Shown here: one piece after another, positions 24,187-38,921 of the stretch
How positions within the stretch are numbered: position 1 is the stretch's first letter
Layout: the number at the start of each line of letters is the position of its first letter
Source of the DNA: Mangrovimonas sp. YM274
GTDB lineage: Bacteria > Bacteroidota > Bacteroidia > Flavobacteriales > Flavobacteriaceae
Assembly: GCF_030908385.1 (NCBI RefSeq)
Contig: NZ_CP133091.1
Span: 1,722,128-1,786,127, forward strand
Direction of reading: 5' to 3'
Length of the DNA stretch: 64,000 nt
Program-made: the position numbers and the translations under genes
Notes under the pieces: generated by a model
Seen by the model: only the letters and a program-made list of their open reading frames with translations
What the model was told of the DNA's origin: nothing
The model's database searches: none

Positions 24187-24247
24187 GTTAAATTAAAGTT
24201 AATAACAGCTCTTGGTTTAATGTAGTGTAATGTGTGCTATAAATTTA
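24187..24247 (+). promoter_or_regulatory. LamG promoter 1: GTTAA direct repeat plus -7 box
   Basis: GTTAAATTAAAGTTAA starts at 24187; -7-like TAAATTTA is at 24240-24247, 53 bp from repeat start; the ATG is at +85 from the repeat. The leader acaactaaaatttaacaatt precedes the ATG. Confidence 0.65.
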
Positions 24248-24271
24248 AAAAACAACTAAAATTTAACAATT

Positions 24272-25477
24272 ATGATAATAAAATTACACAAAAAAATGTT
24301 TTTTACTGTATGCTTTATGGTGTCTGTGTTAACTTTTAATGCGCAAAGTGCATTGAATTTTGATAAGGTCAATGATTATATCCAAACACCTTATGCAGGC
24401 GTGCTTGGATCAGCTAACAGAACCTTTGAAGCTTGGATTTATGTGCCTTCCTCTGCACCCGCATCTAATTTGGCAATATTGGATTATGGATATAGTCAAG
24501 TTGGGGGTAGGAATACATTTGTGGTTGGCGGTGATAGAAGTTTGAAGTTTATTGCCGGAGCAGCCAATGTTTCTACCGATGCAGATACGGTGCCGTTGGA
24601 TATCTGGGTTCATGTAGCCTTTGTTAAAAATGGTACTACAGGTTATTTGTATATAAATGGAGATGAAATGGGGTTCGCTTCTGTGACTGCACTGAATACG
24701 CCTTCTTGGGGAGATGATGTGAAAATTGGAGAGCGTGTTGCAGGTGGTTCCATTTTGTTTCAAGGAAATATCGATGAAGTTAGGATATGGGATATTGCAA
24801 GAACCGAAGCGGAAATCCAATCTACTATGAATACTGGAGTATGTGAAGATGCTGCAGGATTGCAAGCATATTTTAAATTGGATGAAGGAATTGCCGAAGG
24901 AGATAATACTGGAGTCACCACAGCTGTAGATGCAGCCAATGGGAATAATGGTACCTTAATGGGATTCGATTTGTCTCCGGGAACTGTTTCTAACTATGTA
25001 GGAGGTCATGGTTTGGTAACTCAAGAAGGTGCTACCCTTACAGCCGCCCAGACAGGAGCTACTTACCAATGGGTGGACTGTGACAATGCCAATACTGCAA
25101 TTGCAGGAGCTACAGAACAGGTTTATACACCTGAAGTTTCTGGTAGTTTTGCGGTAGAAGTTACTGTGGATGGTTGTACTGTTACTTCTGAATGTGTGGA
25201 AGTGGCTTCATTAGGAGTGGAAGATACCTTATTTGCCAGCAATCTTAAATTGTATCCAAACCCAACGTCTGGAAATGTAAATGTGACTTTGAATGGTGTG
25301 TATCAAACTGTAGATGCACAATTGGTGTCTATCACAGGAAAGGTAGTAGCAACCTACCAATTTAGCAATACCAATGAATTTTCATTAGATCTAAACAAGT
25401 TCAATTCGGGGCTTTATTTCTTAAACCTTAAGGCAGATCAATTAGATGCTGCGACGGTTAAAGTGGTAAAGATGTAA
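24272..25477 (+). CDS. LamG-domain secreted protein 1 (T9SS cargo)
   Basis: 401 residues. Signal peptide to about residue 25 (VLTFNAQ), LamG/concanavalin-like domain about 28-185 of subtype A (YIQTPYAGVLG, RTFEAWIYVPS, WVHVAFVKNGTTGYLYINGD, IDEVRIWDIARTEAEIQ), a short linker, an Ig-like module (about 250-310, TGATYQWVDCDNAN, VYTPEVSGSFAVEVT) and a T9SS type A tail from about 320 (LKLYPNPTSGNVNVTL, SGLYFLNLKADQ, VVKM end). Likely a surface or secreted glycan- or protein-binding adhesin. First of nine tandem paralogues with its own promoter and terminator. No catalytic site is visible. Confidence 0.88.
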   Translation: MIIKLHKKMFFTVCFMVSVLTFNAQSALNFDKVNDYIQTPYAGVLGSANRTFEAWIYVPSSAPASNLAILDYGYSQVGGRNTFVVGGDRSLKFIAGAANVSTDADTVPLDIWVHVAFVKNGTTGYLYINGDEMGFASVTALNTPSWGDDVKIGERVAGGSILFQGNIDEVRIWDIARTEAEIQSTMNTGVCEDAAGLQAYFKLDEGIAEGDNTGVTTAVDAANGNNGTLMGFDLSPGTVSNYVGGHGLVTQEGATLTAAQTGATYQWVDCDNANTAIAGATEQVYTPEVSGSFAVEVTVDGCTVTSECVEVASLGVEDTLFASNLKLYPNPTSGNVNVTLNGVYQTVDAQLVSITGKVVATYQFSNTNEFSLDLNKFNSGLYFLNLKADQLDAATVKVVKM

Positions 25478-25500
25478 TTGTGTAATGTGTTTATGTTGAA

Positions 25501-25530
25501 AGCCAACCTGAAAAGGTTGGCTTTTTTTTT
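25501..25530 (+). terminator. Terminator of LamG gene 1
   Basis: AGCCAACC (25501-25508) pairs with GGTTGGCT (25515-25522), followed by a very long T run. It is the same hairpin type as after the other genes of the array. Confidence 0.85.
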
Positions 25531-25558
25531 TTTTTTTTTTTTTTTTTTTTTTTTTTTT
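25522..25558 (+). repeat. Homopolymer of 37 T
   Basis: The T-tract of the terminator is extended to 37 uninterrupted T, against about 5-8 in the sister terminators. Length is likely unstable by slippage and may also be a sequencing or assembly artefact. Confidence 0.9.
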
Positions 25559-25590
25559 GCTCTGAAAATCAAATAATTGAGATTTATTAA

Positions 25591-25651
25591 GTTAAATTAA
25601 GGTTAATGAGCATGTTTGGTAAGATATTTCTGTAGGTCTTAAATAATTTTA
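25591..25651 (+). promoter_or_regulatory. LamG promoter 2
   Basis: GTTAAATTAAGGTTAA from 25591, -7-like TAATTTTA at 25644-25651 (53 bp), ATG 84 bp after repeat start; same 5' leader as promoter 1. Confidence 0.65.
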
Positions 25652-25674
25652 AAAACAACTAAAATTTAACAATT

Positions 25675-37254: not shown

Positions 37255-37426
37255 AGGGTTTTGGGGCGTTGATTAGTTAAACAGACCGGCAATATACATA
37301 AAGTTGATAAGAAAATTCAAACAGGAAAGGGCCGATAAAAGTCAAGTTTTAAAATACGTATTGTACCGCATGAAAACACTAATAGTCATGAATACCATAA
37401 TATTGAGAAGTATCAACATTTTCAAG

Positions 37427-37485
37427 GTTAATTATGGGTTAATCCGGCTACATATGGCGAAAGACTTAATGGGAAAGTATTTTTT
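37427..37485 (+). promoter_or_regulatory. LamG promoter 8
   Basis: GTTAATTATGGGTTAA from 37427, -7-like TATTTTTT at 37478-37485 (51 bp), ATG at 37508, 81 bp after repeat start. The leader before the ATG differs from that of genes 1-6. Confidence 0.55.
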
Positions 37486-37507
37486 TTGCTAAAAATTAAT
37501 AGAAGTT

Positions 37508-38758
37508 ATGATGAAACAATTACACAAAAAATTAGTGTTGTCTGCTTTGGCTGCAGGCTCATTTTTAATATCCAATGCCCAAACTGGAATTAATTTTGAT
37601 GGTGTCGATGACCATATTCAAACAACGGTACTTCCTGTAACAGCTACCAATCCAAGAACTGTTGAGGTTTGGATTAGAACTACTAAAAATTCGATCCCTA
37701 CCAATCAAGGAGGAGATGGACAAAGTGTGATTTGCGATTGGGGAAAGGATAATACAGGTAATCGGTTTACATTTAATATTTTAGGGAATAATGCGTTGAG
37801 GATCGAAGTAGGTGGCGGAGGTGTAAATGCAACTACCGCGGTAAATGATGGTTTATGGCACCATGTGGCTGTGGTTTTTGAGTCTTTTGCTTCAACGAAT
37901 CATTCAGTGAAATTTTATGTGGACGGAAATTTGGATGCAGAAGGGATTTTAGATAAGTATGCCTACATTCTTTCTACAGGTACCAACCTTAAAATAGGTG
38001 AGAAGATTACTGGAGATAAGAATTTTGAAGGCGATATGGATGAGTTCCGAATCTGGAATAGAGTATTGACCCAAGAAGAACTTCAAAGCAGAATGTACAG
38101 AGAACTTTGTGGAGATGAAGAAGGCTTGGTGGTATACTACCCTTTTAGTGTGGGGACGCCTAATGGAGATAATACCGTAATCAATGAAGCGATCAATGAA
38201 GCAGATATGGAAGATATTGGTACTTTAAACGATTTCGCTTTAACAGGAACATCTTCAAACTGGGTAACTGGCCGTCCTTTGGTGGCGCTTGAAGAGAATA
38301 CTTTGTCTGCAATGCAGGAAGGTGTTAGTTATCAGTGGGTGAATTGCAACAATGCTAGTGAGGCTGTTAGTGGTGCTACTGAGCAAAGCTTCACACCAGA
38401 GGTGTCTGGAACTTATGCGGTTGAAATGACTGTTGAAACGGCAGAGGGAACCTGTGTTACTACTTCAGAATGTATGGAAGTTGAGGTAACCTCTTTAAGT
38501 GTTGAAGATAATGTATTGGAAGGTTTAAGAATTTTTCCAAACCCAACGTCTAACAACATAAATGTAGATTTGAACGAAGTATACGAAACAGTAGAGGCGC
38601 AATTGGTTGCCATTACAGGAAAAGTAGTGGGAGAATACCAATTTAACAACACCAACGGGTTTGATATTGCTTTAGACCAATTAAATTCGGGAGTGTATTT
38701 CTTAAACTTAAAGGTGGACCAATCGGAAACCGTTACAATAAAAGTTGTTAAGATGTAA
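37508..38758 (+). CDS. LamG-domain secreted protein 8 (T9SS cargo)
   Basis: 416 residues. Signal peptide to about 24 (FLISNAQ), LamG domain of subtype C (HIQTTVLPVTATNPRTVEVW, IRTTKNSIPTNQGGDGQSV, LWHHVAVVFESFASTNHSVK, MDEFRIWNRVLTQEELQSRM), Ig-like module (EGVSYQWVNCNNASEAVSGA), T9SS type A tail (LRIFPNPTSNNINVDLNE ... VVKM). It is separated from the first seven by rlpA, and its tail and untranslated regions are more divergent. Confidence 0.88.
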   Translation: MMKQLHKKLVLSALAAGSFLISNAQTGINFDGVDDHIQTTVLPVTATNPRTVEVWIRTTKNSIPTNQGGDGQSVICDWGKDNTGNRFTFNILGNNALRIEVGGGGVNATTAVNDGLWHHVAVVFESFASTNHSVKFYVDGNLDAEGILDKYAYILSTGTNLKIGEKITGDKNFEGDMDEFRIWNRVLTQEELQSRMYRELCGDEEGLVVYYPFSVGTPNGDNTVINEAINEADMEDIGTLNDFALTGTSSNWVTGRPLVALEENTLSAMQEGVSYQWVNCNNASEAVSGATEQSFTPEVSGTYAVEMTVETAEGTCVTTSECMEVEVTSLSVEDNVLEGLRIFPNPTSNNINVDLNEVYETVEAQLVAITGKVVGEYQFNNTNGFDIALDQLNSGVYFLNLKVDQSETVTIKVVKM

Positions 38759-38784
38759 TCGAAGGATTACGCCTTTAGTGATGA

Positions 38785-38812
38785 AGCCAATGCATTTGCA
38801 TTGGCTTCTTTT
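38785..38812 (+). terminator. Terminator of LamG gene 8
   Basis: AGCCAATGCA (38785-38794) pairs with TGCATTGGCT (38797-38806), loop of two bases, then a T-rich tail. Confidence 0.8.
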
Positions 38813-38859
38813 GTTTTAGTTGTAAGTAGTTGATTGTAAGTCGATAGAGGGTTTACTAG

Positions 38860-38921
38860 GTTAAATATAGGTTAAATACTGTGTATTTTTTGCTTTTTAA
38901 AAGTGTTGTTTAATAAATTTT
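38860..38921 (+). promoter_or_regulatory. LamG promoter 9
   Basis: GTTAAATATAGGTTAA from 38860, -7-like TAAATTTT at 38914-38921 (54 bp), ATG at 38943, 83 bp after repeat start. Confidence 0.6.

Follow-up and report, generated by a model that had tools for sequence, protein, structure and literature searches.

A GTTAA direct repeat before nine LamG genes of Mangrovimonas sp. YM274 is a probable operator of a flavobacterial OmpR/PhoB-type two-component system

In a 64,000-nucleotide stretch of the genome of Mangrovimonas sp. YM274 (contig NZ_CP133091.1, positions 1,722,128 to 1,786,127; hereafter the window), nine genes for LamG proteins are each preceded by the direct repeat GTTAA-N6-GTTAA. 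This report concerns that repeat and the two-component system, called system A here, that probably reads it. Direct repeats of 11 bp are a known form of binding site in the OmpR/PhoB family of response regulators, as the original prediction had stated. The Escherichia coli ArcA box, for example, consists of two direct repeats 11 bp apart from centre to centre, often with extra repeats (PMC3798270; this and the other sources cited are drawn on in excerpt). Unlike the ArcA box, the LamG operator stands at a fixed distance. In Riemerella anatipestifer, the regulator of the flavobacterial two-component system PhoPR binds upstream of its own operon, and the core of its motif from DNA affinity purification sequencing (DAP-seq), TTTAACA (reverse complement TGTTAAA), was likened to ArcA by its authors (PMC9603813). 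PhoPR differs in having 583 peaks, and repeat spacing and promoter geometry are not part of its description in the text available (PMC9603813). PorXY-SigP of Porphyromonas gingivalis is a two-component system tied to the type IX secretion system (T9SS), but it controls genes of the secretion machinery through an extracytoplasmic function (ECF) sigma factor (PMC4800418, PMC8050853). System A is instead linked to genes for secreted cargo that have housekeeping-type promoter boxes. A further system for comparison is RprXY of Bacteroides and Porphyromonas; RprY is the best NCBIfam match of the regulators of system A and of two further systems, B and C. All three miss the RprY cut-off of 370 bits, with system C nearest (284.9 bits, compared to 270 for B and 218.7 for A). 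Literature searches for this operator or system returned no description that we recognised. We consider it very likely, from the sequence comparisons below, that the system A regulator, an OmpR/PhoB-type protein, has GTTAA-N6-GTTAA as its operator and would activate the LamG array.

Twelve matches to GTTAA-N6-GTTAA were found in the window, compared to a mean of 0.48 and a largest count of 3 in 100 dinucleotide-preserving shuffles. N6 was the only enriched spacing; each of the other spacings of a GTTAA pair from 0 to 22 gave at most two matches on both strands of the window. Nine of the matches are the LamG operators (Table 1), while the other three, at 20331, 21226 and 23836, are not directly before LamG genes, and those at 20331 and 21226 have no TAnnTTT box at a matching distance. 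The repeat has a period of 11 bp, and the TAnnTTT box follows 53 bp after its start in LamG genes 1 to 6 and 51, 51 and 54 bp after it in genes 7 to 9. From the operator start to the ATG, 80 to 85 bp were read from the sequence of the nine genes. The original prediction had given these nine start coordinates and distances, and all of them were reproduced exactly. TAnnTTTG is the housekeeping promoter consensus of flavobacteria (PMC9723704), and the LamG boxes fit it, mostly without the last G. The C-terminal sorting domain PF18962, found in cargo of type IX secretion, was present in all three of the nine window LamG proteins that were scanned.

The Mangrovimonas genome is one contig of 3,823,913 bases, and in it the bare repeat occurs 50 times, compared to 47 for a reversed control pattern. 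The bare motif was, therefore, rejected as a marker of the regulon. With a TANNTTT box 46 to 58 bp from the repeat start, 20 sites were found against 3 for the control. The 16 sites with the box at 51 to 54 bp comprise ten LamG genes, five genes of a second array, which encodes secreted proteins, and the system A operon, which lies at the head of that second array. The remaining four have the box at 46, 55, 56 and 57 bp. Nine of the ten LamG sites are those in the window, and the tenth precedes a solo LamG gene elsewhere (C1:2583617), whose protein (L041:5696-6940) had no match to PF18962. A T9SS sorting tail was found in both of the second-array proteins scanned, out of five. Specificity, then, resides only in the motif together with its placement and not in the motif alone. 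When the original prediction was put to its own check, an equal frequency and placement of the motif before unrelated genes, all 16 sites at 51 to 54 bp belonged to this set; the repeat by itself was no more frequent than the control.

The original prediction had placed the whole array under one OmpR-family regulator with no such gene in the window. The latter point was confirmed by a scan for Trans_reg_C (PF00486, E of 0.001 or less), which was found in eight genes of the genome and in none of the window. Very probably, the predicted regulator is that of system A, whose Trans_reg_C domain lies outside the window at C1:493214-493420, in an operon at about C1:493.2-495.3 kb, which is roughly 1.23 Mb away from where the window starts. 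The kinase and the regulator, to judge by their overlapping genes (Table 1), appear to share this operon. The regulator scored 104.7 bits with PF00072 (cut-off 30.2) and 56.1 bits with PF00486 (cut-off 26.2), and its recognition-helix stretch is nearly identical among orthologues. When loci of about 3.2 kb around the eight OmpR genes were examined, the motif was found near the system A regulator only; such loci miss the promoters of operons that begin with the kinase, and hence that of system C. That a single regulator serves the array is supported by the operator it shares with system A, by the conservation of that operator in the family and by the linkage in M. aestuarii described below, and activation would be its probable effect.

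ArcA, RprY and PhoB were each tried as a name for the system A regulator and rejected on model scores, as it reached 115.4 bits with the ArcA model NF008378 (cut-off 334) and stayed below the cut-off of the RprY model NF051850. The half-site of ArcA, GTTA, resembles the GTTAA half-site, and the likeness to ArcA noted earlier holds for the site and not for the protein. The predicted structure of the kinase (pLDDT 78.8, pTM 0.48) and the matches listed for it in the Protein Data Bank showed general kinase folds, with no hint of what is sensed.

The system A kinase was sought in 149 genomes of the family. Thirty-nine had a match at 1e-40 or better, many of them to the catalytic part only, and the 21 loci examined, including that of the window's genome, are those matched over nearly the full length (one more, in G057 near a contig end, was left out). 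An N6 repeat lies within 130 bp upstream of the kinase in 18 of the 21 loci, with the box at 51 to 54 bp in 15 of these 18, and the flanks differ. A second sample, the best 80 of 545 kinase relatives from named genomes, gave 79 loci from organisms that partly overlap the first set, in genera including Mangrovimonas, Ulvibacter, Aequorivita, Formosa, Tenacibaculum, Winogradskyella, Kordia, Cellulophaga and Aquimarina. Within 220 bp upstream, 54 of them have a repeat of N5 or N6 form; 23 of the other 25 have one N6 repeat at 277 to 1730 bp upstream, and in every case its box is at 53 or 54 bp, so that 77 of the 79 have a repeat within 2 kb. The geometry is kept in 73 loci (50 close and 23 further upstream), in 72 as N6 with the box at 51 to 54 bp and in one, that of M. 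aestuarii, as N5 with 42 bp to the box. As a control, 1,024,407 reversed bases contained no N6 site at 51 to 54 bp. A same-strand site is also found downstream of the system A regulator in 39 of the 79 loci. A matrix built from 16 kinase promoters of other genera placed all nine LamG sites among the top 22 of both window strands. Counts of motif plus box over the 149 genomes were not used as evidence, since nearly all genomes have a few, kinase present or not, and the counts also catch other conserved promoters.

Two kinds of small genes were seen around system A in these relatives. Of the 18 loci examined, mostly from Winogradskyella and Psychroserpens, 17 (L211, L215, L216, L227, L233, L253 and others) encode a conserved basic micropeptide of 28 to 31 amino acids (MRTLNNNQITERDQRTKAYNWN..RRFR type) between operator and kinase. 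It starts about 185 to 265 bp before the kinase, and an inverted repeat follows it in the two loci displayed. In L204, L206, L211, L216 and others, a protein of about 165 to 216 amino acids with a heptad-like charged C-terminus is encoded, often directly downstream of the system A regulator, with an operator of its own and a box at 53 bp. This protein is probably secreted, and no Pfam family exceeded its cut-off in the copies scanned.

Across the nine LamG promoters, all ten half-site columns are invariant (2.00 bits), compared to means of 1.25 bits in the spacer, 0.62 in the stretch from operator to box and 0.60 in the 30 bp upstream. This agrees with the earlier claim that the half-sites are kept although the spacers vary. 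It also bears on the idea that the motif has no function and was carried along with the promoter when the genes were duplicated. The nine genes are indeed tandem paralogues and for the most part have similar leaders (several with CAACTAAAATTTAACAATTATG), and close LamG relatives were found in only three of the 149 genomes, namely the window's genome, its congener M. xylaniphaga (G040) and M. aestuarii (G098). However, the neighbouring columns drop to about 0.6 bits next to fully conserved half-sites, and the same site at the same distance recurs before the five second-array genes, the system A kinase operon and the kinase operons of many genera. Shared ancestry without function is, thus, extremely unlikely.

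The paralogous systems B and C allow the geometry of the LamG sites to be compared. The system B kinase (L042) was found in 49 of the 149 genomes at 1e-90 and the system C kinase (L043) in 58 of 60 genomes, and 30 loci were fetched for each. Kinase promoters of system B contain an N5 repeat, which has a 10-bp period, in 29 of the 30 loci, usually with three half-sites, and N6 in none; the box is at 43 or 44 bp in 28 (L274 has N5 with the box at 43 bp, and L282 is without a repeat). Those of system C contain N6 in all 30 loci, and the box lies 44 bp away in 29 of them and 43 bp away in one. In the eight genomes whose A and B promoters were both examined (G000, G040, G029, G148, G085, G059, G091 and G097), B has N5 and A has N6 throughout, and in G148 and G085 the system A repeat precedes a neighbouring gene. 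The LamG promoters combine an 11-bp period with a box at 51 to 54 bp and, therefore, bear the signature of system A and not that of B or C.

Another possible explanation is that the LamG operators are read by a different OmpR-type regulator in the cell, either that of system B or C or an orphan regulator (L042:3155-3859, minus strand) that adjoins system B. The GTTAA half-site is common to the kinase promoters of B and C in the numbers just given, and the orphan, which groups with the regulators of system A, shares their recognition-helix stretch. Neither B nor C matches the LamG sites in both period and box distance, however, and in M. aestuarii the LamG array flanks system A while no system B kinase match is present. 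We regard a reading by one of these regulators as unlikely. The kinase partner of the orphan seems to be missing in this Mangrovimonas genome; in Lacinutrix-like genomes (L114, L115 and L119), a complete system A pair occupies the place that the orphan has here.

The LamG array is linked to system A in M. aestuarii, where LamG genes lie on both sides of the system A operon. There the repeat has a 10-bp period, with ten N5 sites and no N6 site in the 19.5-kb array region (random mean 0.16, largest 3, in 200 sequences). The box is at 42 bp in five of the ten, which precede the kinase and four array genes. At the first LamG gene of the array the repeat is in the opposite orientation, and each of the sites then left either is without such a box or overlaps, on the opposite strand, one of the five. 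Period and distance have changed together while the half-sites are unchanged. No system B kinase match was found in M. aestuarii among all 19 candidates scored. Loss of system B may permit this shift but does not force it, because six other genomes likewise without a system B kinase match retain N6 for system A.

Binding, dependence on phosphorylation, activation and the signal are what we infer for system A from these sequence patterns. A membrane kinase would sense a signal from the envelope or from outside and phosphorylate the regulator. The half-sites, spaced by one helical turn at about -65 to -50, would then be occupied by two regulator molecules in head-to-tail arrangement, both on one face of the helix if ArcA and PhoB are a guide (PMC3798270). 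The bound regulator would aid the housekeeping polymerase at the TAnnTTT box. System A would in this way switch on its own operon, the nine LamG genes of the window, the one elsewhere and the five other secreted-protein genes, and one signal would remodel a set of surface or secreted proteins. The position of the operator upstream of the promoter and its nearly fixed distance suggest that activation is direct. The regulator could instead be a repressor, or the site could serve another class of protein, for example an AraC-type activator or an alternative sigma factor, since a direct repeat alone is no proof of an OmpR-type protein. Yet a protein bound at the site, upstream of the core promoter, would leave the box uncovered, the box fits the TAnnTTTG housekeeping consensus (PMC9723704) and the linkage is to an OmpR-type system. 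Both of these possibilities, taken together, appear improbable.

Several observations weigh against activation of the array by system A. Activation is preferred over repression on the position of the site. The nine LamG genes are paralogues, and their shared promoter partly reflects common descent, although the half-sites are far better kept than their surroundings. The GTTAA half-site is not private to system A, as systems B and C also carry GTTAA repeats, and the orphan regulator close to that of system A is encoded in the same genome. The matrix from the kinase promoters ranks the 23836 site first, and places other than LamG promoters outscore three of the LamG sites. The spacers of the LamG sites (ATTAAG and variants) are unlike those of the kinase promoters. 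Three of the 21 kinase loci are without a close N6 repeat, and six of the 79 loci (L188, L203, L214, L217, L223 and L230) are without the geometry. Lastly, in 19 other genomes that have the kinase, the motif with a box at 50 to 55 bp gave 53 sites against 22 for the control, many of them away from system A; outside this genus, geometry alone is no clean mark of the regulon.

Nuclear receptors follow a direct-repeat rule in which paralogous dimers with a shared half-site are told apart by spacing. They are eukaryotic zinc-finger proteins, and the comparison is one of logic only. It is a tentative idea, which we hold at somewhat below even confidence, that Flavobacteriaceae have up to three paralogous two-component systems with a shared GTTAA half-site that are kept apart by promoter geometry, with spacing as the address. 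The addresses could, at the same low confidence, be a period of 11 bp with the box at 53 for system A, a tripled period of 10 bp for system B, its box at 43 when counted from where the second repeat pair starts, and a period of 11 bp with the box at 44 for system C. The LamG and kinase promoters of M. aestuarii, with a period of 10 bp and a distance of 42 bp, might then represent a regulon changing address as a unit, which is as doubtful as the scheme itself. Spacing is not proven to be the discriminator, because the flanking bases also differ among systems A, B and C.

Some further features of the window and the genome were recorded. The site at 23836 is borderline: it comes ahead of the array, before a conserved stretch in which no gene is called, and its membership in the regulon is uncertain. 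This stretch (23836-24135) separates the LamG array from a gene that looks holA-like by eye (22707-23819), and contains the operator-like repeat with its box at 55 bp, as well as a TACCTTTG box and an end that resembles a terminator. The identity of the stretch is 90% and 85% in two other genomes of the genus, and it is possibly a small RNA; Rfam found nothing at gathering scores over 22000-42000. A 171-bp piece before LamG gene 5 (31194-31364) has 97.7% identity to the 3' end of LamG gene 4 and the region downstream, and follows an unrelated minus-strand gene (30062-31096), as if that gene had arrived with a duplication of the tail of LamG gene 4. At the terminator after LamG gene 1 is a run of 37 T (25522-25558), possibly a slippage-prone tract. 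Elsewhere in the genome, a set of genes, one of which looks PadR-like by eye, is preceded by a promoter (L046 4512-4574, C1:2612511) that has a GTTAA-N6-GTTAA repeat, a GTACTTTG/CATAATAC palindrome and a box at 56 bp, and similar sequences recur in many genomes of the family.

Table 1. Operators and LamG genes of the window (window positions) and the system A genes (positions in locus L039)
Feature	Position	Strand	Details
Tenth, borderline site, GTTAATCAAGTGTTAA	23836..23851	+	TACCTTT at 55 bp
Operator of LamG gene 1, GTTAAATTAAAGTTAA	24187..24202	+	TAnnTTT at 24240 (53 bp)
LamG gene 1	24272..25477	+	401 aa, Laminin_G_3 and T9SS sorting tail
Operator of LamG gene 2	25591..25606	+	TAnnTTT at 25644 (53 bp)
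LamG gene 2	25675..26916	+	413 aa
Operator of LamG gene 3	27008..27023	+	TAnnTTT at 27061 (53 bp)
LamG gene 3	27091..28332	+	ATG at 27091; start in the open reading frame list is an upstream TTG
Operator of LamG gene 4	28422..28437	+	TAnnTTT at 28475 (53 bp)
LamG gene 4	28504..29733	+	ATG at 28504
Operator of LamG gene 5	31400..31415	+	TAnnTTT at 31453 (53 bp)
LamG gene 5	31484..33634	+	716 aa, two Laminin_G_3 stretches and T9SS tail
Operator of LamG gene 6	33711..33726	+	TAnnTTT at 33764 (53 bp)
LamG gene 6	33795..35036	+	413 aa
Operator of LamG gene 7, spacer ATGGGG	35121..35136	+	TAnnTTT at 35172 (51 bp)
LamG gene 7	35201..36454	+	ATG at 35201
Operator of LamG gene 8, spacer TTATGG	37427..37442	+	TAnnTTT at 37478 (51 bp)
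LamG gene 8	37508..38758	+	416 aa
Operator of LamG gene 9, spacer ATATAG	38860..38875	+	TAnnTTT at 38914 (54 bp)
LamG gene 9	38943..40190	+	415 aa, Laminin_G_3 and T9SS tail
System A kinase	L039:14886-16283	-	HisKA and HATPase_c
System A regulator	L039:14185-14889	-	receiver and Trans_reg_C; overlaps the kinase gene by 4 bases

The kind of regulator described here is known and the regulon is new, with the possible spacing code of the paralogues as the new part. What would surprise a specialist is that three paralogous systems with a shared half-site each have their own geometry, and that one species has moved a set of promoters to another. A widespread two-component system of flavobacteria gains a probable operator that can be searched for by its letters and spacing, and system A is thereby tied to an expansion of secreted LamG proteins. 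If it is true that spacing separates the paralogues, they would show clearly, in bacteria, how the spacing of half-sites can act as a specificity code, and M. aestuarii would be the natural switch that such a code has to explain.

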